Shown: positions 12,352 to 43,730 of the stretch, one piece after another
How positions within the stretch are numbered: the first letter of the stretch is position 1
Layout of the letters: each line of letters opens with the position of its first letter
NCBI GenBank assembly: GCA_948144175.1
Contig: CANXME010002104.1
Location: 124,001 to 188,000, forward strand
Direction of reading: 5' to 3'
DNA length: 64,000 nucleotides
Origin: Closterium sp. NIES-65
Taxonomy: Eukaryota > Streptophyta > Zygnematophyceae > Desmidiales > Closteriaceae
Notes under the pieces: generated by a model
Databases searched by the model: none
Told to the model about the DNA's origin: nothing
The model's input: only the letters and a program-made list of their open reading frames with translations
Made by a program: the position numbers and the translations under genes

Positions 12352-12399
12352 CTGGCCGCCACCACGAGTAGAGGCAGCAGGAGTGGTAGTAGGAGTAAG

Positions 12400-13500
12400 A
12401 GCTCACCAGTGGTGGGAAGAGTAGGCTCGGCGACCCAGCGGCTCGGCAGTTCGGCGGCTCGGCGGCTCGGGCGACTCGGGCGGCTCGGCGGCAAGGCGGC
12501 TCAGCAGCAACTGCAGCTCAGCAGCTCGGTGAATCGGCGGCTTGGCGGCAGGGCGGCTCGGCAGCAACTGCAGCTCAGCAGCTCAGCGACCCGGCGGCTC
12601 GGCGGCAGGGCGGCTCGGCTGTGGGGCGGCTCGGCTGCTGCAGGTGAGCGGCTCGGCTGCTGCAGTGGGAGATGAAGGAGGAGGAGAAGCAGGGGAGGCC
12701 ACAAACCTGCCACCCCTCTGCTGGCCTCTCCCGCAAGCGGCCCCCTCAGGTCGCCTCGACAGGCGACGGGAAAAGGGGGGGTGGGTGGTGGGGGGCCGGT
12801 AGGTGCAGCGGCGGGGCCAGCAGGTGCAGTTGCGGGGCCGGTAGAAGGGGACGGCAGGAGCCGTCAGGAGGGGACGGCGGGGCCGTCAAGAAGGGACGGC
12901 GGGGCCGTCACGAAGGGACGGCGGGGCCGTCAGGAGGTGACCGGGCCGCGACGGGGGCAGGCGGCGGGGCTGCGTAAGGGCCTGGGCGGGGCCGCGACAG
13001 AGCCGTCGGCGGGGCCGCGTGAAAGCCGGGGCGGGGCCGCGTAGAAGCCGGGGCGGGGCCGCGCGAGAGCAGGTGGCGGGGCCGCGTGAGAGCAGGCGGC
13101 GGAGCCGCGTAAGGGCCTGGGCGGGGCCGCGACAAAGCCGTCGGCGGGGCCGCGTGAAAGCCGGGGCGGGGCCGCGTAGAAGCCGGGGCGGGGCCGCGCG
13201 AGAGCAGGCGGCGGGGCCGCGAAGGAGCCGGGGCGGGGCCGCGGGAGAGCAGGCGGCGGAGCCGCGTAAGGGCCTGGGCGGGGCCGCGACAAAGCCGTCG
13301 GCGGGGCCGCGTGAAAGCCGGGGCGGGGCCGCGTAGAAGCCGGGGCGGGGCCGCGTGAGAGCAGGCGGCGGGGCCGCGACAGAGAGGGCGGCGGGGCCGC
13401 GTCAGTGAAGGCGGCGGGGCCGCAGGGGAAATGGCGACCCGAGGGGTCGCTAAAAAGAAGATCGCGCCTCGGGGGGCGCTTCGGTGGGCAAAAAAAAAAC
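12400..13500 (-). repeat. GC-rich leader repeats of the minus-strand copia element
   Basis: Two repeat types fill the leader: gcggctcggcggcagggcgg-like repeats (about 12420-12660) and ggcggggccgcg-based units of roughly 25-50 bp (about 12780-13430). These occupy the place where gag would be expected. Confidence 0.75.
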
Positions 13501-16190: not shown

Positions 16191-16420
16191 CGAGAGTGGT
16201 AGTGCGAGTGAATGATTGTGTGAGCGATGTGACTGTGTGTGAGTGAGTGTGAGGCGGAGTGGTGTGAGGGGGAGCGGTGTGAGAGGGAGTGGCGTGAGAG
16301 CGAGTGGTGCGAGCGTGAGCGGTGTGAGAATGAAAGGTGTGAGAGTGAATGGCGTGGGAGTGAGTGGTGTGAGAGTGAATGGCGTGGGAGTGAGTGGTGT
16401 GAGAGTGAGCGGTGTGATAA
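16190..16420 (+). repeat. Degenerate gtgagagtgagtgg microsatellite
   Basis: Imperfect repeats of gtgagagtgaatggcgtg-like units run directly into the first acceptor-side copy of kinase 1 exon A. Confidence 0.7.
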
Positions 16421-16421
16421 G

Positions 16422-16893
16422 CCGTCCGCAGGGGCGTATCCCCTTATGAAGCCCGTGGGGCCGGACGGAGCCCTGCCGCACTACACCAGTGGGGTGGGAC
16501 GAGCTTGGCACAGCCCCTAGCACGTCTCACCCTGTCCCTCCTTGTATTCTCTGTCCTTCCCCATCCCCTACTGCAGAGAAGAAGCCATCCGCAGGGGCGT
16601 ATCCGGTTATGAAACTCATGGGGCCAGACGGGGCCCTGCCGCACTACACCCGGGAAGAGCTTGACGTAGCTCCTACTACCACACCTCACCCTGTTATTCC
16701 CCGTCTTCGTCCTTCCTCGTCCCTCATGGCAGAGAAGAAGCCATCCGCAGGGGCGTACCCCGTTATGAAGCCCGTGGGGCCAGACAGACGGAGTCCTGCC
16801 TCACTACACACGGAAAGAGCTCGCCGCTGCCCCTACCTACGACTCATTCCGTCCCTCCTTGTATTCTCTGTGCTTTCCCATCCCCTACTGCAG
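16422..16893 (+). repeat. Acceptor-side copies of kinase 1 exon A
   Basis: Three partial copies of the 5' part of exon A start just after an AG at 16422, 16577 and 16733. The real exon starts at 16894, so units are about 155-161 bp. Each copy keeps the KPSAGAYP coding start and breaks off before the P-loop. Confidence 0.85.
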
Positions 16894-19800
16894 AGAAGAA
16901 GCCATCCGCAGGGGCGTATCCGGTTATGAAGCCTGTGGGGCCGGACGGTGCCCTGCCTCACTACACCCGGGAAGAGCTTACCGCTGCCACGAGCAATTGG
17001 ACGCAGAAAATCGGCGAAGGGGGCTTCGGGACTGTTTATAAAGGGTACCTGCGGAGTGACGGTAGTAGCCGCATTGGTGGCATTAGCAGCAGCAGCAGCA
17101 ATGGGAAGAGTGGCAGCAGTGGGAATAGCGGGGGTGCTGGTGGTGGGGGAGAGGGTGGAGCAGGAGAGGGGGGAGAGGGAGGGGAAGTGCTGGTGCCAGT
17201 GGCTGTGAAGATGTGCACGAGTGGGATCAAGGACAGCGGCAGGGAGCAGCTCATGGTGAGTGCTGTGCGGTGCTGAGCGGTGGTAAGCGCTATGGTGCAG
17301 TGCGATGAGGTGATCATGGTTGTGGGAGCAGTGGGAGTGCTGGTGGTGGGGGAGAGGGGGGCGGACTGCTGTATCTGTGAAGATGTGCACAAGTGGGATC
17401 AAGGACAGCGGCAGGGAGCAGCTGATGGTGAGTTCAATGCGGTGCTGATGGGTGGTGAGCGCTGTGGTGCAGTGCGGTGAGGGGATCATGGCTGTGGGAG
17501 TAGTGAGAGCTCTGGTGGTTGAGGGGAGGGGGGCGGATCCCAGTGGCTGTGAAGATGTGCACGAGTGGGATCAAGGACAGCGGCAGGGAGCAGCTCATGG
17601 TGGGTGGGTGCTGTGCGGTGATAGTGAGGTGGTGCAGCATCCGTATATCCTCAGGTCAGGCTGCTGGAAGTGGCTACTCAAGCCTGCTTCAGGAGGTGAC
17701 TCAACCCCCCATCGCATCCCATCCCACCCCTTCTGTCGGAAATGCTCTGTATGGCCCCTTTCTCCTGACTCCCACCGACCACGCCTGTAGACCCCTGAGT
17801 CTCCCTTCCCCCTTCCACTTGTCTCTTGCTCTTGCTCTGGGGTACTACCGACGCCCTAACTGCTGTATACTGTGTGCCGTGTGGCAGCGTTCCATCATGA
17901 CATCTCACTTGCCCCCTCTGGAACAGACTAGGGCTCCTGCTGGTTCTGATCCAGACCACTCAAACTCCTACATCGCGCCCTTGCTGTGTTCGTGGTGTGG
18001 TCCTGGACCCTCCTGCCCTGCTGATTCTCCAGCACCACCACTCCAGACTCTCGGACTTCTACCACTCTCCAGCGTTCCTCGCTGAGGCCACGGTCTAACG
18101 TCTGCTGCCGCGCAGTCCTGCGATACACTTCCTGCCCTTCCTGCAGCTGCCCTCCACTTGCTGGCCTCTGCCCCCCGAGCCTCTGCTGGTACCGATGCGC
18201 GTCTCGCAGCTGAGCCACATGAAGATTCTCTAACGCTGAAGGCAGAAGCGCTCGTAGGTAATCCCCCTTGGCCTTGGCCAGTGCTGCCCACAACTCTGGG
18301 GTTCCTGCTGTCACCACATCAGTCAACACTTTGGGCGCCCCTACCGGCAGGATCGGCTCTCTGCCATAGAGCAGATAGTAAGGGGACACGTCTCGCAGCG
18401 CCGCCTGCTTGCTGAACTGGTACCCCGCAGCAACCCAGTGCAGATCCTCATCCCAGCTGCGCTTGTGTGCCTCTCCATATGCCCGTAGCCCTCGCTTGAG
18501 TGTCTGCACCATCCGCTCTGTGAGGCCATCAGCTTGTGGATGATACCGGGAGGTCCTTCTGTGCGTGATCCCGATAACTGCCAGCGCCTTGTCAAACTCC
18601 CCCCGAAACTCCGTGCCCTGATCCGTGAGCACTTCACCACATGCCCCCATCCTGGTGAGCACTTGCTCCGTGAAGGCCTCCGTGACGAGTGCCGCGCTCT
18701 TACTGCTAAGAGCGCGCACCTCCACCCACTTACTGACATGCTCTATCATGACCAAAATGTACCGCTTGCCTCGCCGGCTGAGGGGCAATTCCCCCGCCAA
18801 ATCCAAGGACCATCTGTAGCCCAACCCGCGGATGGGGAGCGACTGTAGCTCTTGCTGGCTCTTCTCCAACTGGGCCTTATTGCGGTCGCAAGCCTCACAT
18901 TGCGCCACCCGTTCCTTAATCTGTCGCGCCATGCCTGCCCACCACCAGCCCGTGTTGACCAGCTGGGTTGTTCTGACGTGCCCAAAGTGCCCCAACTGTC
19001 GGTGCACCCTGTCAATGATGCCTTCTCGATCCGCTGGCGCAGGCACCAGCTTCCACCCCTCTCTGGTCCTCAGCTGTACCTGCCCCGCATACCACCTGTA
19101 GTGCTGTCCCCTTGCCCGTGCTCTCTCCGAGGCAGGCTCTTCTGCCTCCGTCTCTCCCCGCAGCCACCTGAGAGTTTCTTCGTCCTGCCATATGTCGGCC
19201 GCTCCGCGCTGCTCCTGACGCTGCTCCCCCTGCCTTTCTGCTTCTCTTGCCAGAGCCACGAGCCCGGCCACTGGCTCTGCCGCCGGCGGGTTACGCGATA
19301 GCCCATCCACGTGCTGAAGCGTCCGGCCTGGCCTGTGCTTCACCACGAAATCGAATTCCTGCAACCGCATGGCCCACCGCGCGTTGCGGCCTGTCAGCGT
19401 ATGATTAGTCATTAGCCACAGCAGCGGCTGGTGGTCCGTCACCAGTGTGAACTCGCGCCCTTGCAGGTACACTCGGAAATGCGTCACCGCCCAAACCGCC
19501 GCCAACCCTTCTCCCTCGTAGGAGCTGTAGTTTGCCTCCGCTGCGTTGCAGCTGCGACTCGCAAAGGCCACCACCCTCTCCCCCTGCTCAGTCTGTTGGC
19601 TGAGCACGGCTCCCATGCCTGCGCTGCTCCAGTCAGTGTACAGCACGAACCTGGCCTCTGGCATCGGCAGCAGAAGCACCGGTCCCGACTTCACGGCTTC
19701 CAGCAGGTCCCGTAGTGCCCCCTGCTCGGCCTCTCCCCACTTCCAGGCTACGTCCTCCCGCAGCAGCCTATTCAACAGAGCCGCCCGCCTACTAAAGTTC

Positions 19801-22800
19801 GGCACGAACTTACGGTAGTAATTCAAGAAGCCCAGAATTGCCCTCAGCGCGAAGCGACCACTCTGGGTCGCCAGGTTGTCCAGCACTGCGACCTTCGCTT
19901 GCTGAATGGTCATCTGGCCTCCACCCACTTCAAAGCCCAGATACCGCACCGTATTCGTGCCGAAACGGCACTTCTTGGGGTGGCATGTGAGTCCGGCTCC
20001 CCTGATGGCTTCCAAGACCTGCTGCACATCCTTCACGTGCTGCTCGGGCGTTGAGCTGAACACAACTACGTCGTCTATGTAGCAGGCCGCGCAGTGCTGC
20101 AACGCGCGCAGCACCCGGTCCATTGCTTTCTGGAACACTGCCGACGCGTTCTTAGTCCGAAAGGCATGAACAACCATTCGTACAGTCCGTCCGGCCCATG
20201 AAAAGCTGTCTTCCTCACATCCGCCTCCTTGATTCGTATCTGATTAAATCCCTGGCAAAGATCCAGCGTGCTGAAGATCGCTGCCCCCTGCAACTTGTCG
20301 AATATCTCCTCTGGCGTAGGCATGTGATAGCGATTCGCCACCGTCAGCTTATTGAGGTCTCTGTAATCTCCGCACATGCGTCGCGACAGCACTTCTCCTG
20401 TAAGTTCTTTCCTCGCGGCCACCACGGTGGCAGCCGCGTACTCCGACTCAAAGGGCCTGATGAGTCCTGCCTCCAGCAATTCCCGACACTTCTCTCTGCA
20501 CAGATCAAGATCTCCTGGGCTCATGCGGCGTTTGCGCTGGTACACCGGCACCTCCTCCGTCAGCCGAATCTCCATCTCTCCCCCGTTGTATTTGCCGAGC
20601 TCCTGCAGTGTGAAGGCAAATGCCTGTCGGAGCCTCCTCACCACGCTCCACATCTGCTCCCGCAGGTCTCCCTTCAACCCTTCTCCTACTTCCCATGCTC
20701 CATCCTCTTCTGCCGCTGGTCGGACTGCCGCTGTGCTTCCCCCTCCTTCGGTCTCGGCTTCCGGTTCCGACCCCGCCCCTGGCTCCTGCTGCCCCCTGCT
20801 CGTGTCTGCCACCCCAGCCCCGTTTGGTGACATCGGCTCGCCGGCTGCCACTGCTTCTCTTCTTGCCGGCAAAACTTCCAGCGCCATTAGAGCCCAACCT
20901 CGCTCTCTCTGCTGCTGCCTTTCCACCTGCAGGTCCAAGAGCCGCTGTTCCGCCCTCTGCTGGCTGGCGCGCACCTCTTCTACGCTCGCATCCCCTGGCC
21001 CTCCCACTTCCACTTCCATCTCCAGCTGCTTGGAGGCCAGGTGCATCTGTATCACGTGCATCAGCCAATGCACCGCCTCCACGTCCATTGCTCGCCCGAG
21101 CGCTTCCCTCCGCTTGGCTTCTTCCACTCCTGGTGCTGCCGTGGCGTCAGGGACGAACCCCATCGCCAGCTCTCGCTCCCTGGCCGAGGGCTCTTCCCAC
21201 TGATCCTTCAGCCGGTCATACACCATGCCTGGGCCCGGCAACCCTTCGCTCCACACGAAGCCATGGGCCTGGTGGTGCGCCATCAGGGTGGGCCAGGCTT
21301 CTCTCGGCAGCCCGGGCTCATTGCACTGGAACTGACTTGGGTGATCGGGCTTTGTCACCGGCGCTGGCTCCCGATGCGTCTCCAGGATGTCCTCCACGGG
21401 GCGTGGCGAGGGCCTCTCGGTCTGTATGAGCTCCCATCTGAGCCTCCCTTCTGACACCCCATTCTGCCAATACCGTCTAACCCTGTGCGCGTAAGACCCT
21501 TGCTGTACCGCATCCCATGCCACTCCCGGTCCCAGCGCTCCCGCCACCACTTCTAGCATTCGACGCACCGGCTCCCTACAGTCAGTCGAAAAGTCAGGGT
21601 TTTCCAGGATGTACAAGTACTCCCCGTGCTGCTGGTATATCAGCTTCATGACCCGCAGTAACTCCGCGAAGAGCGTGGACCGTGGGTCATCCAATCCTTT
21701 GCCCTTCCCAGCCCTCGACACTCCCTGACACTCCCAACCTGCCACCAGCAGATCCACTCGTCCCCACTTTCGCACGTCCTCTGCCGCCACCTCCCTAATA
21801 TCGTAGAGTGATTCTTCTTCCGCCTCTGCTTCTACCCCCAACATCAGCTGAGCCGGGTAGATCCCTCTTAGCTTCCTTGCGTGGTTGAAGGCCATCCTGC
21901 GCACCACAGGATCTATCTCCACTAGTATCCACTTCTGTACTCTGCATCCCGCCTTTAGTGCTGCAGCCAGCCCCGTTCCGATTCCTCGGAACAGCTCGAC
22001 AATGGTAATTGGTTCCTGCAGGCGCGTCAGATCTGTCAGCCTTGGGGGCAGCGCCAAGGACCGCTCGGTCCTTTCTTCTTCCGCTTTGCGCGTCTCCTGC
22101 TCCAGCACGTATTGCTTCCAGGACCAATCTTCGATCTGCTCTTCCACTTGCGCCATACGCACTCGAAAGGCTTCCCTCGGCTCGCGTCTCACGAAGTGCA
22201 CAGGCAGGGTGCCTACGGGCCCATCATTCCTCCAGTACTGAGTCCGGTAGAGGACCTTCTCCTGCCAGGTGCAGATGGTGGCTCCCACACGATACAACAG
22301 CTCCATGCCTATCAGCAAATCAAAATCCCCTGACGGCGATATGCCGCACCGCATCCGGATTCGACATTCGTCCTTGGTGCCCGGCTGCAGGATCACTTCC
22401 ACTGGCATGCGGGTGCAGGGCATCCACTTCGGCTCTCCTCCTTCTGCCGTCATCACCAGGATTCCCCGTGTAATCAGCCGGTTCGGCAGGTCTAGTTCCA
22501 GCCTCTGAGCCAAGCCTTTCCCCAGGAGGATATGATGCGCTCCCGTGTCGATGATCGCTTGCGCCACCGTCACCCCTCCCACCGTGATTGCCCCCTTTTC
22601 GATTGTCAGCACCGATGGCTGACACACCATGCGCTCTTTGGGATGTCTTTCTGATGTCATTTCTTGCTCTGGTTCGGCCGCGTACCCACGGAACCGCCTG
22701 ACCCTCGGGGCGGGCAGCTCTCTCCTTTCCCCTTGATCACTCCTGAGCACTATCTCTTCTCGCTGCCGTGGCGCCCGCACCACGAGCACAAACTCTGCTT

Positions 22801-25800
22801 CGCTACTCCCCTCCTCCTCCTCTCTCGCCAACATGGCGGTCTCCTTGTGAGCCGAACCTTCCAGCTCCCTGATCCGTGCTTGCAGCACCAGCAGCTGCGC
22901 CTCCAAGTCCTTCTCGTTTCTGGGGCCCGCCGATCCTGGTCTCCGACTGTAGCAATCAGATGTCCGATGTCCTCGCCTGCCGCAGTTCTCACAGGTGGGG
23001 ACTTCTGGACACTCCCGTCGCATGTGCCCTTCCTTCTGGCAGTGATCACACCTTGGCGGCCTGCTGCAATCCCGCTGTAGATGCCCCTCCAGCCCGCACC
23101 GATGACACCTGCGCGTCTCCGCCTCCCGTGCGGCACGTCTACTGGAGGCTTCTCCGGTTGCCACGGCCGCCCAAGCTGACCCCCGTCGTCCCTCGGCCTG
23201 CATACCGCCTCTCTCCATCTCATATAGGCGGAGTCCCAGCTCGTATTTCTTCGCCAGCTCATACGCGTACTCCAGCGTCGCCGATGGTCCCCTCTCAAAC
23301 ACCCTTCCTCGTACATCCCCGGCCACCCGCTCGTCCAGGCAGTTGAGGAATTTGGAGACCAGCCTCCACTCATCCCTGCACTCCATGTCCGCCGCCAGCT
23401 CGCGCAGTCTGCCGTACGTTGCTAGCAGAGATTCTCCCGTCTTCCTTTTGAACGACGCGAACTCCCTCATGCGCTCCGGCGTCTGTACTGGGAAGTGGCG
23501 CTTCAGCGTGTCGAAAAACTGTGCCACTACGTCTCAGGTCACTCCGCTGGCTTGTGCCGGCTCACTCAGCATGCGCTCTAGCTCCATGCCATACGCGGTC
23601 TCCGCTTCTCCTGTCACGGTGTTCGAGAGTCCCCGGAAGAAGTCTTCTGGCTCCAGGCCGTCCTTCATCCAGCGATACTGCGCGTTGCGGATCTGCATCA
23701 TGTAATTCTTCAGACTGCTGCCCACGCCTGGCGTGCCTGCGAAGCGCTCGGGCACCTCTATCTTGGGCAGCGCAGCGTACTTCACGTTGCCCGGGCGTGC
23801 TACCTCCGTCACTTGATGCTCTGACAAGGAGAGACGCCTCAAGCGCCCGAGCAGCTCGCCGTCGGTACCGCCCTCTCCTTGCGCGTTAATCGCGCGCGAC
23901 GGCGACCCTCCCGTGGTGGCTTCCACCCGCGGTCTCCCCGTCGAGCTCTCTCTCGCGTCCCGACCCTCGCTCGGCAGGTCACCCATGCTGTGCCTCCGAT
24001 GCGGTGCCGTGTAGGCCTCCCTGCGGGCGCCGTCTTCCGTCTCGCCCGCCTGCGTCCTTTTCTCGCTCCCCGTGACTTCTCCTGCACGCCATCCTGGCGT
24101 CGCCATCGTCGCCAATTCTGGCGGCCGCTCGTAACGCTTCCCAGAGCGTGTCTGCATGCGCTGTCCAAGGCGCTTTACTCCGGAGATTTCCTTCGTTGTA
24201 TGTCAGAAAATCTCCTTGCCACTACCGGCTGACAAGCTGGTTCCCTAGCGTGCTCATGACTGCCTGCGAGTGGGTTAACAGGATTACATTGGAGCAAACG
24301 GGAAACATACAACGAAGCAGCCTACACTAGGGTATCAGCTCTGCTATGTACAAGCCAACTTTGCTGCCCTAGCCTAGCGCCTCTATCATGCACACATCAC
24401 ATGGGCGAGGCTCGGGGTGCCGAGCCATATTTCCAAACCGCAGGCGCTCTGAATCTGCATGGGCTCCAGCGCACGCCCTTCGCCAGCTGCAAGCTTGGCG
24501 TGCATGTTCAACTGCAGCTTTTGCCACCTGTCGGCTGTGCTGCACTTATTCGCGTCAACAGCTCTCGCCCTGCACCGGACACAAACGAAACATGCACCAC
24601 CCCGACTCATACACCCACCATTCTCATGCAAACTTTCTTGAGCGTTATTTACAATTATGTACACCCACCCTTCTTCCCTCCGCACTTGTAGATTCAGCTT
24701 CTGCCACATCCTCCCACTCTCCCTGCTGCCAACTCTTGGCGCTGTCTCGGTTCCTATGCGGCCCTCCTGGCTACATAAACCGCGACACTTCCCAATCCCA
24801 TCCCATCCCATCCCTTCCCATCACCCTTTACTGCAGACGGAGGTGGTGGTAATGACGGCGGTGCAGCATCCGTACATCCTCAGGCTGCTGGAAGTGGCTA
24901 CTCAAGCCTGCTTCACAGGGTGACTCAAGCTTCACCCCACCCCACCCGACCCCACCCAACCCACCCCTTTCCACCCCTTCCCATCCCTCAGACAGAGGTG
25001 ATGGTGATGACAGCAGTGCAGCATCCGTACATCCTCAGGCTGCTGGGGGTGGCGATTCATTGCCCAGTCCCGTGCTGTCCCCCTCTACCTCATCCTCCCA
25101 CACACCCCCATCCCGCAGACGGAGGTGATGGTGATGACGGCAGTGCAGCATCCGTACATCCTCAGGCTGCTGGGGGTGGCGACGCTGGGAGAGACTCTCG
25201 CCATGGTGTCAGAATTCGTGCCCCACGGGGATGTTGACTTGCTGCTGGAGCGAGGTGAGTGTGATGAGGGGTGTGAGGGGTGTGAGTCTGCTTTTGAGTC
25301 GACTCAAAAGCAGACTCGTTACACGCGGTTTCTACATTGAAAAGTTATTTGTTGCATGGCAGGTTGGGAAGAGTGTACAGAGAACACTTGTTCGAGCGAG
25401 ACTTCCAAGGACTCGCCCCCGAATTTCTCTTGAAGCAGACGTGGACACTTCGGGCTCACCCGAGTGAAAACGATTGGCCAGTTTTCAGATTGTCGGGCCA
25501 AGGGTAGTTGGAGACTTTGCCTCGGCTATTTTCTAGGGCTATCCTCCGTTTGTTATATAGGGGTTAGCTTTGCTTGCTACTGAATAGGAGTTCGGCACTG
25601 ATGAAGGTCTGATCGGGTCTTTCCCCCGTGATAGGCCGAAACATGTTTGTCTTTGTCTTGTTTTAATCAAGAGACGAGTTCCTGCGCAAGCCTTTTCTTT
25701 AGCCGAGCATTCAGTTTAGTGGACGGATTTTTACAAGGCTTTGATCCTACTGCTATAAGGATCTCTATCTTGCTGCTCTTCCCCGATGAGTGAGGACCCG

Positions 25801-28409: not shown

Positions 28410-29387
28410 CCTGTCAGACGTTTGTGCCATGAACTTGTTGGATGATTGTTGATTTTTCCTTTTTAGATGAGGCTATACATGATATTGAGTTACAATGTTG
28501 TCCTAATAACAAGCAATCTAAGGAGCAGAGCCACCGTGTCGCCCGTGGAACACCTCTTAGCGGGAAAAGCCCCAGCTAGCAATTCTGGCCATGCACGTTC
28601 ACAATTTGGAGTGCTGTACATTGCTGTAATATCCTGATATTACTGTATGGACAGCCGTCTCATCCGCCCAGCAAATCAAGTCCTGGCTACCCAAAACCCG
28701 TTATTTTAATGGTCCGGAACACTCAAACTTTGTGACTTGCGGAATGAGATATCGATGCGCCAAAAGCGAGGTCAGACTGGTGAATTTTCCTGATTATTCG
28801 GTATTTCGAGAATTTTCCGTGGAGACTCGATGCATCAGGGTTCCTAGAAACGAAATCCATGACAGGGCGTGTACACCATCCGAGCGTGATCACTATTTTT
28901 TTGGCAGCCACCGTTTGGAACCGTAGGCTAACCTAATCTGATACGAAGTACCGTGTACAACCTCTCGAAACCGAGCTCTTTCCCCCATCCTGACTGCACC
29001 ACACATCTATCAGTGACCAGACCACTGACCGCAATCCCAGTCCAATCGCGGCTGGAGTTTTGAGAGAGCCACAAAATCCAGTTCATTAGAGTGACGATTT
29101 TAACCTCAGTACAATTGAGTACTCTGTTCCCTCTCTTAGTAGCTTCCCGTGCTGGCGCCTACCCGGCTCGTCTCGCGCGGCGAGTGCAGAAGCTGCGTTG
29201 GAGTTACAATCTGCATTACGGTTTCTGAAACGATTTGAGGTCACATTTCTGAAACCCTGCATTCCTTAAAGCTCAGCTCCAAGTGCATTACAGAAAAAAT
29301 ATCGGGGCAATTCTGGTTCAAGGTTTTGCTTTTAATTTTATAAAGCGACTTAAATTCAGCTCGGGTCGCGGTGGAGCGGTTGGCGCC
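28410..29387. other. Intergenic region between the kinase paralogues
   Basis: Low coding potential on both strands, with no repeat array or RNA gene recognised. It probably contains the terminator of kinase 1 and the promoter of kinase 2, but no motif decides this. Confidence 0.5.
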
Positions 29388-32300
29388 ATGAAGTCTTTCG
29401 GCAAGATGATGAAGAACCTCAGCAGCGGCATGAAAAGTGCGACCACCCGTTATCATTCCCTATAATCATGCTATACTTTTCAACCCATTTCATGTATACA
29501 TTATTTTGTAAAAAATGCTTATTCTTTATCCCTTTTATGTATACATATTCATTGTCATTGTAAGGCTGCGTTGCTAATACTGAAGTTGATCGACATGATA
29601 AGTGAATACAGCATGATATTGGAACGCCAAGCGCCATGCATCATCTCATCTCTCGCCTTTCTCCTCTTGCTCTACCTTCCGCCGGTCCACATTTCACCCC
29701 ACTGCTCTGCTCCCTGTCGCTCCCCGACTGCCCTCGTCCGCTCCCCCTCCCCTCCCCCTTCCCCTCCGCCCACTTACCGCGCCACGCGCGCAGAGAAGGG
29801 CTCCTCTGTCCAACCGGACTTAATTCCCCTGTGGAGGGGACGACACCTAATCACACTCTCCCCCGCCCCCACTTCTTGTGGCCCTCACTTCCCCTTGCCC
29901 TCACTTCCCCCCGCCCCCACTTCTCCCCTCCCCCCCCCCCCCCCCTCCTCCCTCTTCCCCCGCCCCCACTTCCCCTCCGCGCAGAGGAAAAGCCCGCGGC
30001 GCCCCACCCGGACTTAAAGCCCCTGGGGGGGGACGGCGCGCCCCCCATGTACACAAAAGCGGAGCTCAGCGCCGCTACCAACAACTTCAAGCACAAGCTC
30101 GGTGAAGGGGGGTTCGGAGCGGTGTACAAGGGGTACCTCAAGGTGGAGAGCGGTGCGGAGGCTGCAGAGTCGCTGGGCGTGGACCTGAGCGCGGTTTCTG
30201 ATGGGGAGATCCCTGTGGCGGTCAAAATGTGCGCTGCAAAGGTTCTGAGCGCAAGGGAACAGCTCATGGTACGTAAGGGCTGCTGAGAGTGGGGGAAGGG
30301 GGGATCCCTGTGGTTGTTAAGATGTGCGCTGCAAAGGTTCTGAGCGCAAGGGAACAGCTCATGGTGGGAGATTCTGGGCACCCCATGGCTCTCTTACCCT
30401 TGGTGCCATGCCATGGCGGGTGGGTGGGCTGCTGGGCTGGGAGAGTGGGGTGGAGGGGCGAGGGGGGGAGATCCCTGTGGTGACTAAGATGTGCGCTGCT
30501 AAGGTTCTGAGCGCAAGGGAACAACTCATGGTGGGTGGTTCGGGTGCTGGGAGTGTTGATGGTGATGGGGAAACTGCGGCAGTCTCAACATCCTGTGCCT
30601 GCTGGGGCAGGCCTCCTCCCATATGGTGTTGCACCCTCCACCTAGCAGCGTGCTCCTTGCTGCACCTTGCATTCAATCCCTCCCTCCTCGCCTTTCTACC
30701 ATCCAGACGGAGATGATGGTGATGGGAAAGCTGCGCTGCGGGCAACCCAACATCCTGCACCTGCTTGCATGCAGGCGAAGCTGTTGCACCTCGAACCTTG
30801 AAGTTTGCAAAGAAACCCTAAATTACTCCCCTTCCCACGTCCACCACCCTTCCCACCAACCAGACGGAGATGATGGTGATGGGGAAGCTGCGGCACCCCA
30901 ACACCCTGCGCCTTATTTGCAGTATCTGATCCTGGTGCACCTTGTTGATTTTTGAGTCGACTCAAAAATCAACGCGTTGCAGTATCTGATCCTGCTGCAC
31001 CTTGTTGATTTTTGAGTCGACTCAAAAATAAACTCTTTGCAGTATCTGATCCTGGTGCACCTTGTTGATTTTTGAATCGACTCAAAATTCAACTCTTTGC
31101 AGTATGTGATCCTGGTGCACCTTGTTGATTTTTGAATCGACTCAAAAATCAACTCGTTGCAGTATCTGATCCTGGTGCACCTTGTTGATTTTTGAGTCGA
31201 CTCAAAAATCATCTCGTTGCAGTATCTGATCCTGGTGCACCTTGTTGATTTTTGAGTCGACTCAAAAATCAACTCGTTGCAGTATCTGATCCTGGTGCAC
31301 CTTGTTGATTTTTTAATCGACTCAAAAATCAACTCGTTGCAGTATCTGATCCTGGTGCAACCCCCATCCTTCCCCAACCCGACGGAGATGATGGTGATGG
31401 AGAGGCTGCGGCACCCCACCATCCTGCGCTTGCTGCGGGCAGGTCTCCCCTCATGGTGTTGCACCTTCCACCGTACTACAACTGTGAACTCGCACCTTGC
31501 AACGGGCACAGTGTGCATTGCCTGCTCCCCTTCTTCCCCCTTCCCCCCCCCGTGCGCTGCAGGGAATGTTTCATGTTCTTGCACCTCATAGTTTTCAGGC
31601 AGCACCACGCACTGTTCCCCGCCTTCCCCCACCCCCCCATCCTTCCCCCACCCCCCCATCCTTCCCCCATCCCCCCATCCTTCCCCCACCCCCCCATCCT
31701 TCCCCCATCCTCCCCCCATCCTTCCCCATCCAGACGGAGATGATGGTGATGGGCACGCTGCGGCACCGCAACATCCTGCGCAAGCTGGGGAAGGTGTCAA
31801 TCGCTGATGATGCACCTTGTATCCTGCTCCCCTTCCACCCCATCCGCGCCTCCCACCCACCCCCCAATTCAGACAGAGATGATGGTGATGGGGAAGCTGC
31901 GGCACCCCAACATCCTGCGGCTGCTGGGCGCGTGCATATCAGACGACAGCATGGCCATGATCTATGAATTCATCCCCTGTGGGGACGTGCACGAGCTGCT
32001 GGAGGATGGTACGTGTGTCTGTATGGTGCTGACAATTCTGTGCTGTGCGGGGCTGTGTGGTTGTGGGTCTACGGTGTGTGGAGCCTCAGAGGCTGCTGGG
32101 CGCGTGCATATCAGACGACCAGATGGCCATGATCCACGAGTTCATCCCCTGTGGAGACGTGCACGAGCTGCTGGAGGATGGTGGGTGCACGGAAGGAGGT
32201 GAGAGGGTGGAGGGAGGGTGAGTGTACGTGGCTGTGCCGTGTGTGCTTGTGGGTGGGTGGTTTGAAGAGCCTCAGAGGGGCTGGCTGGGGGCCGCAGGTG

Positions 32301-35300
32301 CATATCAGATCAGACGACAGCAGGGCCATGATCCACGAGTTCATCCCCTGTGGAGACGTGCACGAGCTGCTGGAGGACGGTACGTGTTCAGGGCTGGGTG
32401 CTTTGGCCTGTGCATGTGTGCATATGGGGCTGTGTGCATATGGGGCTGTGTGCATATGGGATGACAGCATGGCCATGATCACGAAATCCCCTGTGAGTGA
32501 GGAGAGTGGGGACGTGCACGAGCTGCTGGAGAGGTAGGTGAGAGGCTGCAGGAAGGGAGCCTCCTCGACGTGTCTCCGTGTACTCATTTCCCTTCCTTGT
32601 CCCCCTCTTCCTCCCCCACTCATTCCCCCCCAGCCCCCTAGCAGCGCGAGCGAGCAAGGAGGAGTTGAAGTACGAGGACCGAACCGAATGAAGGTGGCCA
32701 TGGGGTGTGCCGATGCTCTCTCCTTCATCCACGGGCAATCACCCATCGGCCCCACATACCTTCCCCCTCGTTTTCTCCCCCCGCTTCTCACATACGCTCC
32801 CTGCTTCCTCTCCCCTTCCCTTTGCAGTGCGAGCGGGCAAGGAGGAGTTTAAGTATGAGGACCGGATGAAGGTGGCCATGGGGTGTGTGTGCGGAGGCTC
32901 CAGTATTCACCCACGGCACATTCCCTCCCCCCCTCTCCCGCATTACCCTGTTTGACAGCACGCGCGGGCAAGGAGGAGTTGAAGTTTGAGGACCGAATGA
33001 AGGTGGCCATGGGGTGTGCGGAGGCTCCCTCATCCTTACATGAGCAATCTCGCTTTTCCCCTTCTCACCGCATTTTACCACCCACCCACCTCCCCTAATC
33101 TTCCCCCTCTTGCAGCACGAGCGGGCAAGGAGGAGTTTAAGTACGAGGACCGGATGAAAGTGGCCATGGGGTGTGCTGAAGCCTTGGCGTTCATTCACGG
33201 GCAGGAGTACGTTCACCGCGACTTCAAGGCTCCCAACGTGCTGCTGGCCGAGGTGAGCAGCACCATACTGCACCGCAGGGCACCGCAGAGCAACGCAAAG
33301 CAAGTAGAGCAGAGCTTTGGCATTCATTCATGGGCAGGAGTACGTTCACCGCGACTTCAAGGCTCCCAACGTGCTGCTGGCCGAGGTGAGCAGCACCATA
33401 CTGCACCGCAGGGCACCGCAGAGCAACGCAAAGCAAGTAGAGCAGAGCCTTGGCGTTCATTCACGGGCAGGAGTACGTTCACTGCGACTTCAAGGCTCCC
33501 AACGTGCTGCTGGCCGAGGTGAGCAGCACCATACTGCACCGCAGGGCACCGCAGAGCAACGCAAAGCAAGTAGAGCAGAGCCTTGGCGTTCATTCACGGG
33601 CAGGAGTACGTTCACCGCGACTTCAAGGCTCCCAACGTGCTGCTGGCCGAGGTGAGCAGCACCATACTGCACCGCAGGGCACCGCAGAGCAACGCAAAGC
33701 AAGTAGAGCAGAGCTTTGGCATTCATTCATGGGCAGGAGTACGTTCACCGCGACTTCAAGGCTCCCAACGTGCTGCTGGCCGAGGTGAGCAGCACCACCG
33801 TAGAGCATCGTGGAGCACCGCAGGTCCGTGTTAATACACACGCAGGAGTGCGTTCACCACGGCATTAAGGCTCCCAACGTTTTTTAGTCGACTCAAAAGC
33901 AGGAGTACGTGTGTGATAAGTCAAGTTTTGAGTCTACTCAAAAGCAGGAGTACGTGCACCGCGACTTCAAGGCTCCCAATGTGCTGCTGGCTGAGGTGAG
34001 TGCGGGTGTACCGTACAGCACCGCCCGGCCCACAGCACTGCATGGGTGTGCGGAGGCTCTGGCGTTCATCCACGGACAGGAGTACATTCACCGCGACTTC
34101 AAGGCCCCTAACGTGCTGCTGGCTGAGGTGAGGAGCACCTTAGAGCACCGTAGAGCACCGCAGAGCACCGTAGAGCACCGCAGAGCACCGTAGAGCACGG
34201 CAGAGCACCGTACAGCACCTCAGAGCACCGTAGAGCACCGCAGAGCACAGCTTCGTGTTCATCCGTGGACAGGAGTACGTTCTCCATGGCGTCAAGGCCC
34301 CCAACGTGCTGCTGGCAGGCAGAGGTGAGTGCACCAAAGAGCACCGCAGAGCACCGCAGAGCACCATACAACAAATTAGAGCTCTGGCGGTCCACTGGCG
34401 GGCAGGAGAACGTTCACCACTTTAAGGCACCCAACGAATGTGCTCCTGGCGGAGGTGGGTGCAACTACAATGTGTAGCAAGGAGTACCGTACTGCCACTG
34501 CGAGTGGCAGACTTTGGGCTGGCGAGGATAGTGGACAACTGGAAGGACAGCAAACTTCAATCCTCCCCTCTCACCCCTCTCCTCCTCATCCCTTCCTCTC
34601 CCGTTCGCCTCCGTGTTCCTTCCTTCCTCTCGTGCCCCAAGGCCTGCCACCACGTGAAGCGATGTTGTTTTTGAGACGTCTCAAAAACAACCTCGCTTCA
34701 CGTGTCCTCTCGTGCCCCAAGGCCTGCCACCACGAGTGGCGGATTTTGGGCATTTTGTTTGAGGTTGATTTTGAGAATTCTCAAACAAAATGGATTTTGG
34801 CCTGGCGAGGATAGTGGAGAACTGGAAGGACAGAGTCACCCCTCTCGCTCACCCTTCCCCTTCTCGTCGCTCCTCCTCTCTTTCCCTGCTCCCACCCTCT
34901 TGCACTTCCTCCCCCCAGGGCCTGTCCCCGCGAGTGGCAGACTCTGGCCTGGCGAGGATAGTGGAGAACTGGAAGGACCATGTGACGACCCACCCTCCTC
35001 CTGTCCCCCATCAGGGTCTGTCCCCCCGAGTAGCCGACTTTGGCCTTGCAAGGATAGTGGAGAACTGGAAGGACCATGTGACCACCCACCCTCCTCCTGT
35101 CCCCCATCAGGGTCTGTCCCCCCGAGTAGCCGACTTTGGCCTTGCAAGGATAGTGGAGAACTGGAAGGACCATGTGACCACCCACCCTCCTCCTGTCCCC
35201 CATCCCCCATCCCCTCCTCCCCCTCCCTGCTGCCTCCTTTCCCCTCCCTCCCTTGTACCTCATTTCCCCATCCTCGCCTCTCCCCATCAGGGTCTGTCCC

Positions 35301-37881
35301 CCCGAGTAGCCGACTTTGGCCTTGCAAGGATAGTGGAGAACTGGAAGGACCATGTGACCACCCACCCTCCTCCTGTCCCCCATCAGGGTCTGTCCCCCCG
35401 AGTAGCCGACTTTGGCCTTGCAAGGATAGTGGAGAACTGGAAGGACCATGTGACCACCCACCCTCCTCCTGTCCCCCATCCCCCATCCCCCATCCCCTCC
35501 TCCCCCTCCCTGCTGCCTCCTTTCCCCTCCCTCCCTTGTACCTCATTTCCCCGTCCTCGCCTCTCCCCATCAGGGTCTGTCCCCCCGAGTAGCCGACTTT
35601 GGCCTTGCAAGGACAGTGGAGAACTGGAAGGACCATGTGACCACCCACCCTCCTCCTGTCCCCCATCAGGGTCTGTCCCCCCGAGTAGCCGACTTTGGCC
35701 TTGCAAGGATAGTGGAGAACTGGAAGGACCATGTGACCACCCACCCTCCTCCTGTCCCCCATCCCCCATCCCCTCCTCCCCCTCCCTGCTGCCTCCTTTC
35801 CCCTCCCTCCCTTGTACCTCATTTCCCCATCCTCGCCTCTCCTCATCAGGGTCTGTCCCCCCGAGTAGCCGACTTTGGCCTTGCAAGGATAGTGGATAAC
35901 AGGAAGGACCATGTAACAACCCGCCATCACCCCCTTCTGTCGCCCTCCCACTCCCCCCCTTTCGTTCCCTCCCTCCGTCTCCCCACACCAGGGCCTGTCC
36001 CCCCGAGTAGCCGACTTTGGCCTTGCAAGGATAGTGGAGAACTGGAAGGACCATGTGACGACGAGAGTGATGGGGTCACGCGGGTACATTGACCCTGAAT
36101 ACTTTGAGTCAGGTGTGCTGGGATGGGAGGGAGGGAGAACAGGGAGCAGCAGGGGAGTCACGCGCCAGGTGTGCTGGGAGGGGGATTGGTGTGAGTGGCT
36201 GGTCGGGTGTCTGGCTAGTCATGGAGAATTTGCACGACCATGTGACGACGAGAGTGATGGGGTCACGGGGGTACATCGACCCTGAATACTTCGAGTCAGG
36301 TGCGGTGGGGTCGGCAGAAAGAGTCAAAGAGAGAAATACACTAGGTGAGTCAGGTTGGTGGTTGACGAGTTGAGCGGGGGTGTTTAGAACCTCTCATAAC
36401 GACCATGTGACGACCCGTGTGATGGGGTCACGGGGATACATCGACCCTGAATACTTCGAGTCAGGTGCGGTGGGAGGGGATTTGGGTGAGTGGCTGGTTG
36501 GGTGTCTGGTTAGTCTGGTGCACGGCTTGTCAGTTTGTCATGGAGAATTGGAAGGACCATGTGACGACGAGAGTGATGGGGTCACGGGGGTACATCTACC
36601 CTGAATACTTCGAGTCAGGTGCGGTGGGAGGGAGGGAGGGAAGAATAGGGAGCACCAGGGGAATCAGGCAGGTGAGTCGCGCGGGGTGGATTTTGGAGGA
36701 AAGCAGGTGTTTTCTGGTAATTGTGGAAGGACCATGTGACGACGAGAGTGATGGGGTAACGCGGGTACATCGACCCTGATTACTTTGAGTCAAGTGCGCT
36801 GGGGGATAGGGAAAGGGAGAGATAGTGAGAGAGAAGGGGCGAGATGGAGTGAGAAGGGTAGGGGCCCTACCCAGGTGGCAACTGGTTGAGCTGGCCTTTG
36901 TAACTCTCTTACCCTTCGCACCCCTCGCAGGCCACTGTGATGCACATTCAACATCCTCATTCAGCTTGTGGCAGAGCACTCAGGGATAGGCCCATAAGCC
37001 CATAAGCCCATAAGCCCATAAGCCCATAAGCCCATAAGCCTATAAGCCTATAAGCCCATAAGCCCGTAAGCCCATAAGCCTATAAGCCCTTAGCTGTTTC
37101 TCCCCCTTGCCACCCACTCTCCCCTCCAGGCTACCTGAGCGAGTACTGTGACACATTGGCTTGTGGTTTTTTCCTTATCAAGCTCGCCACGGGCCACTCA
37201 GTGATGAAGACCCTCTCGTTCCCTCTTCCCCTTCCTTGTTCTCCTCCACCCCTCTGTTCTCCCCTCTTCCAGGCTTCCTGAACGAGCACTGCGACACATT
37301 TGCCATTGGTATTTTTTCTTATCGAGCTCGCCACAGGGCACTCAGTGATAAACATTAACCCCTGTGTGGTTCTCTTCCTCCTCTCTTCCCCCCCCTCAGG
37401 CTACCTGAACGAGCACTGCGACACATTTGCCTCCGGTATTTTCCTCATAGAGCTCGCCACAGGGCACTCATTGGCAATGAGCTAGCCACAGGGCACTCAT
37501 TGACAATGAGCTAGCCACAGGGCACTCATTGGCAACGCCCTATATGGTTTTCTTCCTCTCTGTACCTTCTACCCCTCTGTTCTCTCTCTTCACACAGGCT
37601 ACCTCAACGAGCACTGTGACACATTTGCCTTTGGCATCTTTCTCATCGAGCTCGCCACGGGTCACTCAGTTCTCGAGGCCAAGTTCGACGATGTGGTGAA
37701 CGGTGCAGTGCGGTCGGACGATGTGGATCTGGGTGCGGTGATGGACCCGCGATTGCAAGGGCAGTGGAGCGAGGAGCAGGCGAAGACGCTGCTGGGAGTG
37801 GCGAAAGTATGTATTACGACGGATTGGGACGACCGGCCTACCATGGACAACGTGGTTGAAATGATGCAAGGGGTGATGTGA
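29388..37881 (+). CDS. RLK/Pelle-type protein kinase 2 (five core exons plus a possible first exon)
   Basis: Core exons 29985-30268, 31873-32008, 33116-33252, 35992-36112 and 37598-37881 join in frame; exons B, C and D have exactly the lengths of kinase 1 (136, 137, 121 nt). Motifs: GEGGFGAVYKG, VAVK, HRDFKAPN, DFG, GYIDPEY, CDTFAFGIFLIELATGHS, and a C-terminus ending VVEMMQGVM. RD kinase, predicted Ser/Thr specificity. A possible first exon starts at ATG 29388 (MKSFGKMMKNLSSGMK), ending at 29436 or 29448; either leaves the phase that exon A needs, but it is unproven. No signal peptide or membrane span is seen, so a cytoplasmic kinase is likely. Almost every splice junction is amplified. Confidence 0.83.
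29785..29984 (+). repeat. Acceptor-side copy of kinase 2 exon A
   Basis: A decayed copy after cgcgcgcag at about 29792 (agaagggctcctctgtccaa), matching the start of the real exon at 29985. Long C-rich tracts lie between. Confidence 0.65.
30269..30531 (+). repeat. Donor-side copies of kinase 2 exon A
   Basis: Two copies of the exon A 3' end (VKMCAAKVLSAREQLM-like, with donor) end at about 30363 and 30530. The real exon ends at 30268. Confidence 0.88.
30712..31872 (+). repeat. Acceptor-side copies of kinase 2 exon B
   Basis: Partial copies coding TEMMVMGKLR...NILRLL start after AG near 30711, 30863, 31381 and 31734; the real exon starts at 31873. Pyrimidine-rich intron ends are copied too. 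Confidence 0.87.
30917..31360. repeat. 60-bp tandem array with a 30-bp palindrome in each unit
   Basis: About seven and a half units of exactly 60 bp (gcagtatctgatcctggtgc and following). Each contains GTTGATTTTTGAGTC followed by its reverse complement, first at 30944-30973. Some units carry one change in the palindrome centre. Confidence 0.93.
32009..32535 (+). repeat. Donor-side copies of kinase 2 exon B
   Basis: Three copies of the exon B 3' end (EFIPCGDVHELLED with donor) end at about 32180, 32382 and 32535. The last is decayed. Confidence 0.86.
32637..33115 (+). repeat. Acceptor-side copies of kinase 2 exon C
   Basis: Copies coding R(A)(G/S)KEE(F/L)K(Y/F)EDR start near 32645, 32828 and 32959; the real exon starts at 33116. 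Confidence 0.86.
33253..34460 (+). repeat. Donor-side copies of kinase 2 exon C, including a 133-bp array
   Basis: From 33183 to 33790 a 133-bp unit repeats about four and a half times. Each holds the exon 3' end (EYVHRDFKAPNVLLAE) plus donor and about 60 bp of intron. One unit reads HCDFK. More decayed copies follow near 33950-34000, 34055-34130, 34265-34325 and 34395-34456. Runs of agcaccgtagagcaccgcag fill 34130-34380. Confidence 0.9.
34625..34734. repeat. 54-bp palindrome between perfect 30-bp direct repeats
   Basis: 34651-34704 is a palindrome with one mismatch, centred on TTTTTGAGACGTCTCAAAAA. The same 30 bases, beginning tcctctcgtgccccaaggcc, flank it at 34625-34654 and 34705-34734, like a large target duplication. 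Confidence 0.92.
34751..34792. repeat. Inverted repeat in an exon D copy
   Basis: CATTTTGTTTGAG (34751-34763) and its exact reverse complement (34780-34792) with GAATTC inside. The flanks repeat ggattttggg/ggattttggc on both sides, so it splits a DFG-coding copy. Confidence 0.85.
36113..36800 (+). repeat. Donor-side copies of kinase 2 exon D
   Basis: Four copies of the exon D 3' half (DHVTTRVMGSRGYIDPEYFESG with donor) end near 36300, 36464, 36619 and 36793. Confidence 0.9.
36931..37597 (+). repeat. Acceptor-side copies of kinase 2 exon E and a 9-bp array
   Basis: Copies of the exon E start (GYLNEHCDTFA-like) begin at 36931 (decayed), 37130, 37273 and 37400; the real exon starts at 37598. 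A gcccataag repeat fills 36985-37090. Confidence 0.88.
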
Positions 37882-38275
37882 TGAGAAAGCAGTTTCGGAA
37901 TGACTTTTGAGTTGACTCGAGAGGATCAGGCGAAGACGCTGCTGGGAGTGGCGAATGTGTGTGTGACGACGGATTGGGACGACCGGCCTACCATGGATCA
38001 TGTGGTTGAGATGATGCAAGGGGTGATGGGATGAGGAGCGGGGGTGTTGAGTAGGCGATTGACTGGGATAACCGGCCCACCATGGATAACGTGCTTGAGA
38101 TGATGCAGGGGGTGATGGGATGAGAAAGCAGTTCCCCGAATGGCTGTTGAGTTGACTCGAGAGGAGCAGAACAGGCGGAGGCTGTGCGGGGTTTGGCGTA
38201 AGTGTGTGTGTGACGACGGATTGGGATGACCGGCCATGGATAACGTGCTTGAGATGATGCAGGGGGTGATGTGAT
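37882..38275 (+). repeat. Downstream copies of the 3' end of kinase 2
   Basis: Three partial copies of the last coding stretch (TDWDDRPTMDNVVEMMQGVM-like, with stop) lie at about 37920-38033, 38056-38122 and 38205-38275. Two are preceded by gagttgactcgagagga, half of a TTTGAG palindrome. Here there is no splice junction, so the amplification is not limited to introns. Confidence 0.85.
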
Positions 38276-39942
38276 GAGGAGGGGTGATATTCGAAAGGAT
38301 TCTCAAGTGCTGCTGAGAAGAGGGAAACATTGCCCAGAAGGATTCAGGGCTGGTGGGACGAGGAGGGCGTTGTCTTGGAGGCGCCATGGTTGTCGGGATG
38401 ATGTGACATGCATGTACTGCCGTTTAGAGGGTCGGTGGGATGAGTTTCTGTAGAGGCAACTCTGGTGTGTGGGCTGTAGTGCTTGAAGTCTTTCAGTTAA
38501 GGTTCTATTCATCATCGCTTTATAGAATTGATCCGATGAGTTGAACGTGTTTATTCTACAGTAGATGTTATGTGATGTTCATCTGTCCTTTAGTTGTAAT
38601 GTCTAATCAATGTTCTGCTCTGACCGTATGGCTTCTGATGTTCTAACAGCTAATGCAGCTTGATATTGTTGGGCTTGCCTGCTCGTTGGCTGATCTGAAA
38701 TGTTGTAGTTTAGGCAGTACAAAAGTGAGATGTAGTTATCCAGCTTTGTAAACTCCCGACAAGTTTTCTGAGTCTGACGCTGCGACCCGAACCCTGTCAC
38801 CCACATCCTTCAAACAGTGCTGATGCAAACCCGCCAGTCTGTCATGGCAAGCCACGTCGGGCTTACGTCAGCCTGTGGAGTCGAGCTGTTTCGCAGCTGT
38901 ATTTGTGTCCTCTTCCACGCCCAGATCAGGACAGTTTGAAAAGTTCGTCGACCAGTTAAAGATTCACAATTTACGTTACCAGCAGTTTCGTCGTCGTTTA
39001 AGCTTAGCTTTTCGCATCTATCATAAATACGCGCCACGACGCCCCTTACGCTACGCACCGCATCACTAAGGATTTGCAATCTTTACAGTGTACTGCACTC
39101 CCCTCCGCTTCCTCACTCTCCTTACATCTTGTAAAATCTACATGATCTCACCACCACCTCACTCTTCCCTCAGGCCATTCCTCATAACCACCCCCGTTCC
39201 AATCCACCACACACTCAAAATCTTCAGCAGCCATACCCTCGGTACAGGCAGGGAGACCCCAGGGAGAAGAGCGTTCGTGACGAGGTTTGATCTCAACGTG
39301 GTGCCACCGCAGGGTGAGCACGTGAGTAAATTGTCCGCAGGTGCCGATAATCGCCAAGACACAGTAATCGCTAGAACTATGATATCCCGCTAGTCCATCC
39401 TCACGCCTTCACAAGTTCTTGCGACGCAGACTGATGTTACTGTACATCAGACTTCGTACAGTGCTATACTGTGCTCCTATATCTTGGCTGAGTCAACCAG
39501 GTGCCGGCCTGAGGTGCTGGCTGCCAGGCTGGCGCTCGTCTGGAAAGGAGCGGGAGGCCGGGAAACGGACAAAAGGACTGCCATGCCGTCGAGCCGCGGC
39601 GAAGCAAGCTCCATGTCGAGGATGCTTCAGCACCGAGTCCTATATGGTGAGCACACCAACTCATTCTTTCCGAACGTCAGGTTCGAGATTACTCTCTCAT
39701 CGCGTACATTCGCAGCCAGGCGCGAAATTTGAGTCGACGCAGTACTTGCGATTCATTTGCGCTAGTTCCCAGCCAGCGGCGTTTAGCTCTCGCTTTCAAT
39801 CGAGAGTGCTTCAGCGTCACGCTAGTAGAATCGCTGTTCGCCACCGAAGGAAGAGGCTAGCATTGTCTCATTTTCAAGGGAAGTTTTCGTCGGCCCTCTT
39901 TCAGTGCTCGAGCTTCTCTTTACATAATTTGAAGTCATTAAA
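38276..39942. other. Intergenic region, no supported gene
   Basis: Short open frames on both strands lack recognisable domains. No array is present. It should hold the promoter of the gene starting at 39943. Confidence 0.5.

Positions 39943-43649: not shown

Positions 43650-43730
<81 letters not shown>

Follow-up and report, generated by a model that had tools for sequence, protein, structure and literature searches.

Half-exon copies at the splice junctions of three Closterium genes suggest recurrent tandem duplication across exon-intron borders

How does an intron come to carry, at its ends, ordered partial copies of the exons that adjoin it? The question is raised by 64,000 nucleotides of the genome of the zygnematophycean alga Closterium sp. 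NIES-65 (assembly GCA_948144175.1, contig CANXME010002104.1, positions 124,001 to 188,000, forward strand; hereafter the window), in which two kinase genes, K1 and K2, contain many such copies. We consider it probable that segments of about 145 bp, each spanning one exon-intron junction, have been duplicated in tandem again and again, and that the copies were tolerated through exon definition, so that introns lengthened while the protein remained unchanged.

To find copies, up to 110 nt of exon sequence was aligned locally with the neighbouring intron, and hits were accepted above a threshold that exceeded the scores of 20 block-shuffles. Sixty-six copies passed, 63 at splice junctions and three beyond the stop codon of K2. 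K1 held 14 copies, K2 held 39 in addition to the three beyond its stop, and a third gene, encoding histidinol dehydrogenase (HisD), held 10. Acceptor-side copies comprised the first ~70 nt of the exon with a polypyrimidine tract and AG, and donor-side copies the last ~70 nt with GT. The alignments ended within 2 nt of the junction in 53 of the 63 junction copies and 4 to 21 nt short of it in the other 10. At least one copy was present at 22 of the 42 junctions tested (7 of 9 in K1, 8 of 10 in K2 and 7 of 23 in HisD), a denominator that leaves out the donor of the first K1 exon and the first exon of HisD. Three families were recovered by BLAST alone (K2 exon A acceptor, HisD exon 10 donor and HisD exon 12 acceptor), and two more by eye only (both sides of HisD exon 8). 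The largest arrays were those of the K2 exon D acceptor, with 10 copies, and the K2 exon C donor, with nine. A first-pass annotation of the window had described exon-end copies with acceptors upstream and donors downstream, up to ten per junction, and these are real. It had placed them at splice junctions of the two kinase genes; both genes do carry them, but so do HisD (43-49 kb) and the stop codon of K2, where there is no splice site. Its list of affected exons, A to E, holds for most of them, but K1 exon D has copies on the donor side only and K1 exon E has none.

The copies were direct and in order, as had been stated. No inverted exon copy was found by both-strand BLAST in the three genes, and the donor copies all lay upstream of the acceptor copies in each of the seven introns with copies at both ends. 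Between the two groups there can be what appears to be the original intron, e.g., ~90 nt in HisD 11-12 (by reading). A whole-exon copy with both splice sites was found neither by BLAST nor in the catalogue for K1, K2 and HisD. Exon-exon repeat pairs were likewise absent from the three genes, apart from 15-bp in-frame repeats in K1 exon A.

The repeated unit had a characteristic size. Over 25 families, with values compiled by hand from BLAST and spacing results, unit length was 146 ± 20 bp. The spacing of successive copied junctions had a median of 143 bp (interquartile range, 129 to 164; 63 of 66 distances, those below 400 bp), and clean, recent arrays consisted of near-identical units of 133, 142 and 96 bp. 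The lengths of the exonic and intronic parts were negatively correlated (-0.67), matching the prediction for a unit of fixed length. The intronic flank had clearly been copied along with the exon end in K1 A, K1 C, K2 C, K2 D, HisD 4 and HisD 10, and was weak or short elsewhere, e.g., at the K1 B and K2 B acceptors. That the unit reflects nucleosome or Okazaki-fragment size is a guess.

A duplication across one exon-intron border leaves partial copies in the intron that are in direct order, stop within the exon and are complete only at the innermost position. The order and the innermost completeness are thus consequences of one-junction duplication, and no new process is needed. The contention that no described process predicts this arrangement is therefore not supported: such duplication yields it automatically, and the available part of one report already presents a case in potato (PMC4974935). 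What is unusual is the scale, with 22 of 42 junctions, as many as ten copies and both intron ends involved.

We propose the following course of events. A segment of ~145 bp overlapping one border has been duplicated in tandem, repeatedly, as the sequence shows. The exon-adjacent copy would have a junction still continuous with the rest of the exon, and this junction would stay in use; older copies would be shifted deeper into the intron, to either side of its short original core, where they would decay. Arrays would next expand locally, giving the near-identical 133-, 142- and 96-bp units. Duplications that altered the mRNA would be purged by selection, as the missing classes of duplicate suggest. 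One-junction copies would be tolerated through pairing of splice sites across the exon, only the functional exon having an acceptor and a donor at exon distance; within any one intron they would always leave copied donors ahead of copied acceptors, as is the case in 7 of 7 introns. The net result would be introns longer at both ends and the same protein.

The missing classes can be put in numbers. Alongside 25 families, 5.2 to 5.9 exon-only duplicates and 4.4 to 6.1 duplicates covering at least two junctions would be expected; the observed numbers were 0 and 0 (P(0) of 0.002 to 0.013), no exon-internal or multi-junction duplicate of ~145 bp having been found in K1, K2 or HisD. Since both classes would change the mRNA, selection is the simplest filter. 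In simulations with the observed unit lengths, one-junction events comprised 45 to 64% of random placements for introns of 90 to 330 nt.

The copies are of different ages. Divergence from the exon ranged from 0 to 18%, 54 of the 66 copies differing by 3 to 18%, and copies closer to the intron centre tended to be older (one-sided p = 0.019, 16 arrays); the events were thus spread over a long time. Copy-specific changes fell on the three codon positions in the ratio 34:44:53, and 16 indels were frameshifting versus five in-frame. A coding function of the copies was set aside on this spread over codon positions and on the frameshifting indels, and the copies are mostly noncoding. Differences fixed in all copies were at third positions in 21 of 25 cases and silent in 19 of 25; most of them would be changes that the exon itself acquired after copying. 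In 53 of 63 copies the splice dinucleotides were where they would be expected; by inspection, three more had them after small indels, and seven had lost them. Copies found by eye were recognised partly by their GT or AG, and conclusions on site retention use the copies from threshold alignment. Use of the copied splice sites is possible but unproven.

Three protein-level results suggest that the functional sites are those of the innermost copies. K1 (~15988 to 28409) and K2 (29388-37881) both match PF07714 and are plant-type cytoplasmic kinases, with RLCK/PBL-type proteins as their nearest named land-plant matches; both are intact, and their inner exons have identical lengths (B, 136 nt; C, 137 nt; D, 121 nt). 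The 336-aa model of K2 is identical to part of P0241, an annotated NIES-64 protein, across all K2 junctions, and K1 from exon B onward has a 196-aa exact run in the same protein. HisD (43240-49287, plus strand; PF00815, 532 bits) was modelled with 12 exons and an intact frame. It aligned without gaps across all modelled exons to a protein of strain Naga37s-1 (439/444), and without gaps to a 429-aa open reading frame (356/421) on a 2,009-nt contig that is probably the transcript of a relative. The K2/NIES-64, HisD/Naga37s-1 and HisD/open reading frame comparisons carry this conclusion. Gene prediction for these Closterium genomes drew on RNA-sequencing hints, according to the available text of PMC10407611, and the public NIES-64 record was assumed to be the annotation of that paper. 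As described in the accessible portion of PMC9225289, sites closest across the exon are preferred where flanking introns are large, and by this preference the copies suggest that exon definition operates in Closterium.

All features of K1 lie on the plus strand. Functional exon A (16894-17255), across which the NIES-53 protein P0010 aligns, is preceded by three copies of its 5' part (16419-16487, 16577-16662 and 16733-16831; 91 to 92% identity, two keeping AG) and followed by two copies of its 3' part with a GT donor (17317-17599; BLAST and alignment). The three upstream copies of the 5' part of exon B (17617-17677, 24837-24901 and 24992-25055) form an array interrupted by a Ty3/gypsy-like element; the functional exon (25119-25254) is exact in P0241, and two copies of its 3' part with donor follow at 25817-25980, one over threshold and one from BLAST. 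Exon C (26791-26927) has three aligned upstream copies in a 142-bp unit (26368-26714) and one aligned downstream copy of its 3' part (26999-27086). Exon D (27431-27551) is followed by copies of its 3' part with donor at 27657-27957 (one over threshold, one from BLAST and one by eye), and exon E (28084-28409) is without copies in the catalogue. The models of exons C and D match the NIES-64 protein.

In K2, also on the plus strand, every functional exon model matches the NIES-64 protein, and the copies were found by alignment except where stated. After the first exon (29388-29436) comes exon A (29985-30268), with one degenerate upstream copy of its 5' part detected by BLAST only (29791-29842) and two downstream copies of its 3' part (30295-30530). 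Exon B (31873-32008) has five upstream copies (30557-31789), between which a 60-bp palindromic minisatellite lies (30917-31359), and three downstream copies (32091-32531). Exon C (33116-33252) has three copies upstream (32647-33025) and nine downstream (33313-34454), and exon D (35992-36112) has 10 upstream (34501-35920) and four downstream (36222-36792). Exon E, which contains the stop codon (37598-37881), has three upstream copies of its 5' part (37130-37470); 3' of the stop, at 37922-38274, are three copies of the last 60 to 110 nt of the coding sequence (the alignment reference was limited to 110 nt; BLAST gave 111 nt). Since these post-stop copies share the same kind of unit, a splice site is not required for duplication. 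The 10 over-threshold copies of HisD, at seven junctions and on the plus strand, lie at 44324-44359, 44428-44461, 45413-45491, 45786-45832, 45923-45980, 46882-46916, 47406-47452, 48012-48057, 48337-48400 and 48473-48528.

A family of short palindromes recurs in the window. The motif TTTTGAG-NNNN-CTCAAAA, with up to two mismatches, had 21 matches versus 0.08 expected, a single 60-bp array contributing seven; the family occurs at 15821, 25292, 27191, 30950-31327, 33881, 33926, 34669, 34769, 37905, 49591 and 57650. The palindromes often have a self-complementary centre (TCGA, GCGC, ACGT or AATT) and longer arms specific to the locus, of up to 27 nt with one mismatch. Their proximity to repeat edges was assessed at eight sites between 25.2 and 38.2 kb, seven motif matches and one palindrome read at 38147; the 60-bp array, the poor palindromes at 27626 and 27903 and sites outside 24231-38300 were excluded. 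Six of the eight lay within 3 nt of an edge (2.3 expected, p = 0.008). Short palindromes may be involved in duplication at some break edges; they account for a minority of the joints.

Several observations weigh against recurrent one-junction duplication followed by neutral decay. All unique differences together were distributed 61:70:181 over codon positions, above the rough ~1:1:1.7 for dead copies; faster mutation of GC-rich third positions may explain this excess. In donor copies, positions +1, +2 and +5 were changed in 0 of 24 each, versus 4, 10 and 8 of 24 for +3, +4 and +6, more constraint than expected of dead copies; in acceptor copies, positions -1 to -3 differed in one of 87 cells. 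Constraint on the lineage of the real site itself accounts for part of this conservation. In several arrays on the acceptor side, such as K1 B and K2 B, the spacers have little or no detectable homology between units, which plain whole-unit duplication leaves unexplained; comparing exonic with spacer identity was uninformative, as shuffled spacers align almost equally (0.82 versus 0.87). The choice of exons follows protein models rather than RNA reads. A general duplication process does not predict the lack of repeat clusters in intergenic DNA (0 in 6.7 kb), though detection is easier with a conserved arm. Two exceptions to the missing classes were met, neither of them in K1, K2 or HisD. In the NIES-54 model P0242, 74 aa of exon A occur as a tandem repeat, which may be real or due to assembly; and at 61937-63335 a 107-bp array is built from an exon-like piece paired with an intron-like one. 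On the minus strand this array has about 13 units, each a 37-nt exon-like piece and a 70-nt intron-like piece with GTAAGT, TACTAAT and TTTCAG.

The strongest competitor, to which we give a distinctly smaller but real chance, holds that duplication is aimed at exon-intron borders, for example by chromatin edges, transcription-linked breaks or hairpin-forming palindromes, instead of being random and filtered by selection. Near-tandem repeat clusters in the three genes coincided with a junction or the stop in 21 of 22 cases (by reading the cluster list against the catalogue). Exonic sequence was masked because exon conservation aids detection, and 10 of 13 clusters were still near junctions (p = 0.012, or 4.6e-5 if only true junctions enter the denominator). 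Clusters numbered 22 in 20.4 kb of gene sequence and 0 in the 6.7 kb of nearby intergenic DNA, and none was found in a 2.1-kb gene at 39.9-42.0 kb, which is without half-exon copies, or in the 6.5-kb gypsy-like insert; yet clusters of similar size occur elsewhere in the window, five in 10.4 kb of copia-like and nine in 14.4 kb of satellite-rich sequence. The unit was roughly centred on the junction (mean offset, 16.6 versus 25.7, p = 0.0016; p of 0.001 to 0.005 across the 25 families), but this centring was not significant in the nine families with exons of at least 171 nt (p of 0.13 to 0.18), and overall p rose to 0.08 once the functional acceptor was required to retain at least 40 nt of intron. 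A repeat edge lay no more than 8 nt from each of the eight independent TTTTGAG-NNNN-CTCAAAA-type sites tested (4.1 expected, p = 0.006), in a test devised after the data had been seen. Random placement can also go far: with ancestral introns of 150 nt, 93% of tolerated events would span a junction, a share that drops to 54% for 330-nt and 38% for 500-nt introns; annotated introns in this Closterium complex now average 485 to 554 nt, as given in the part of PMC10407611 available. The copies beyond the K2 stop show a splice junction to be dispensable. Thus, of the earlier proposal that junction-anchored duplication lengthens introns from both ends, the spanning of junctions and the lengthening stand, and the anchoring is suggested, not proven. 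A fuller version, in which a junction-targeted process copies roughly nucleosome-sized, border-centred segments, some with palindromic joints, and the copied sites are functional, being either spliced out in a nested series or beaten in competition across the exon, seems to us slightly more doubtful still.

It is improbable that the copies were kept because their splice sites are used, whether in a stepwise, nested splicing that starts at the intron centre and works outward or as decoys tuning splicing efficiency. The near-invariance of +1, +2, +5 and -1 to -3 beside changing neighbours fits such use, as do a pyrimidine content of 0.85 upstream of copied acceptors versus 0.56 in intron windows generally and the fact that, by reading, a central donor-acceptor pair can flank a short intron of ordinary kind, as in HisD 11-12. 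However, the loss of the site in 7 of 63 copies is about what neutral decay predicts, 16 of 21 indels shift the frame, and donor and acceptor copy numbers are mostly unequal (9 and 10, 2 and 5), being equal only in K2 B-C. An assembly artefact is scarcely credible. Arrays of near-identical units are difficult to assemble, but 54 of 66 copies diverge by 3 to 18% from the exon, gene models of other strains enter half-exon copies (P0004 of Naga37s-1 and P0242 of NIES-54), and NIES-64 was sequenced with PacBio and linked reads, by the accessible text of PMC10407611; the argument of the first-pass annotation that copies which differ among themselves are no simple assembly error is upheld by these differences and models. 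Alternative or mutually exclusive exons would explain why most copies retain a splice site, but no catalogued copy covers a whole exon with both sites, and we regard this explanation as very unlikely.

Recurrent one-junction duplication has partial parallels, compared here with the available portions of the reports. In the potato RdRp gene, the 3' end of an intron and the 5' end of the next exon were duplicated together, with branch site, pyrimidine tract and acceptor, making a new intron (PMC4974935). That was a single event with a new intron and a changed mRNA, whereas Closterium shows many events, up to 10 copies, donors as well as acceptors and unchanged protein models. No new intron position lies between the copies: K1 and K2 agree in the structure of their inner exons, and the protein models align exactly or without gaps. 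In the Rogers model (AGGT/proto-splice; Drosophila, PMC2891723), tandem duplication likewise provides splice signals, but an exonic segment is duplicated and a new intron arises, whereas in Closterium existing junctions are copied and existing introns lengthened. The proximity rule of exon definition (PMC9225289) shares the closest-across-exon choice proposed here; it was drawn from a higher-eukaryote database of alternative splice sites, in contrast to natural duplicate arrays in an alga. Among the literature matches listed, judged by titles and the beginnings of abstracts, none reported this pattern. If our reading is correct, introns can lengthen without transposons and without protein change, the intermediates being kept as dated exon-end copies. 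The arrays would also serve as natural duplicated-splice-site tests, and from them exon definition is predicted for an alga closely related to land plants.

The copies can account for some wrong gene models in these genomes, e.g., P0004 and P0241. Repeats in gene models were scored by exact-string counts. P0004 contains GKEEF four times and GLSPRVADFGLARIVENWKDH three times, peptides from where K2 exons C and D begin; it reads through copies of the K2 exon C start type and has the exon D start peptide three times. P0242 has two occurrences of the peptide that the donor-side copy of K1 exon C encodes, and P0016, another NIES-64 kinase, by reading extends across copies of the beginning of its own exon B. 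P0241 fuses K1 with K2 and takes in an exon B half-copy in another frame (24401-24919); its odd N-terminal peptide has an exact counterpart at 24401-24517. The copies are the source of the error in this model.

Two retroelements lie in the window. The Ty3/gypsy-like element within the K1 exon B copy array (17700-24230, minus strand) has reverse transcriptase, RNase H and integrase domains, and its first frame also matches a fragment of a C-5 cytosine methylase (PF00145, E = 7e-9). Methylase capture by retroelements occurs in charophyte algae. A copia-like element is present at 7234-12402, with an RVT_2 domain in the frame at 7234-10680 on the minus strand.

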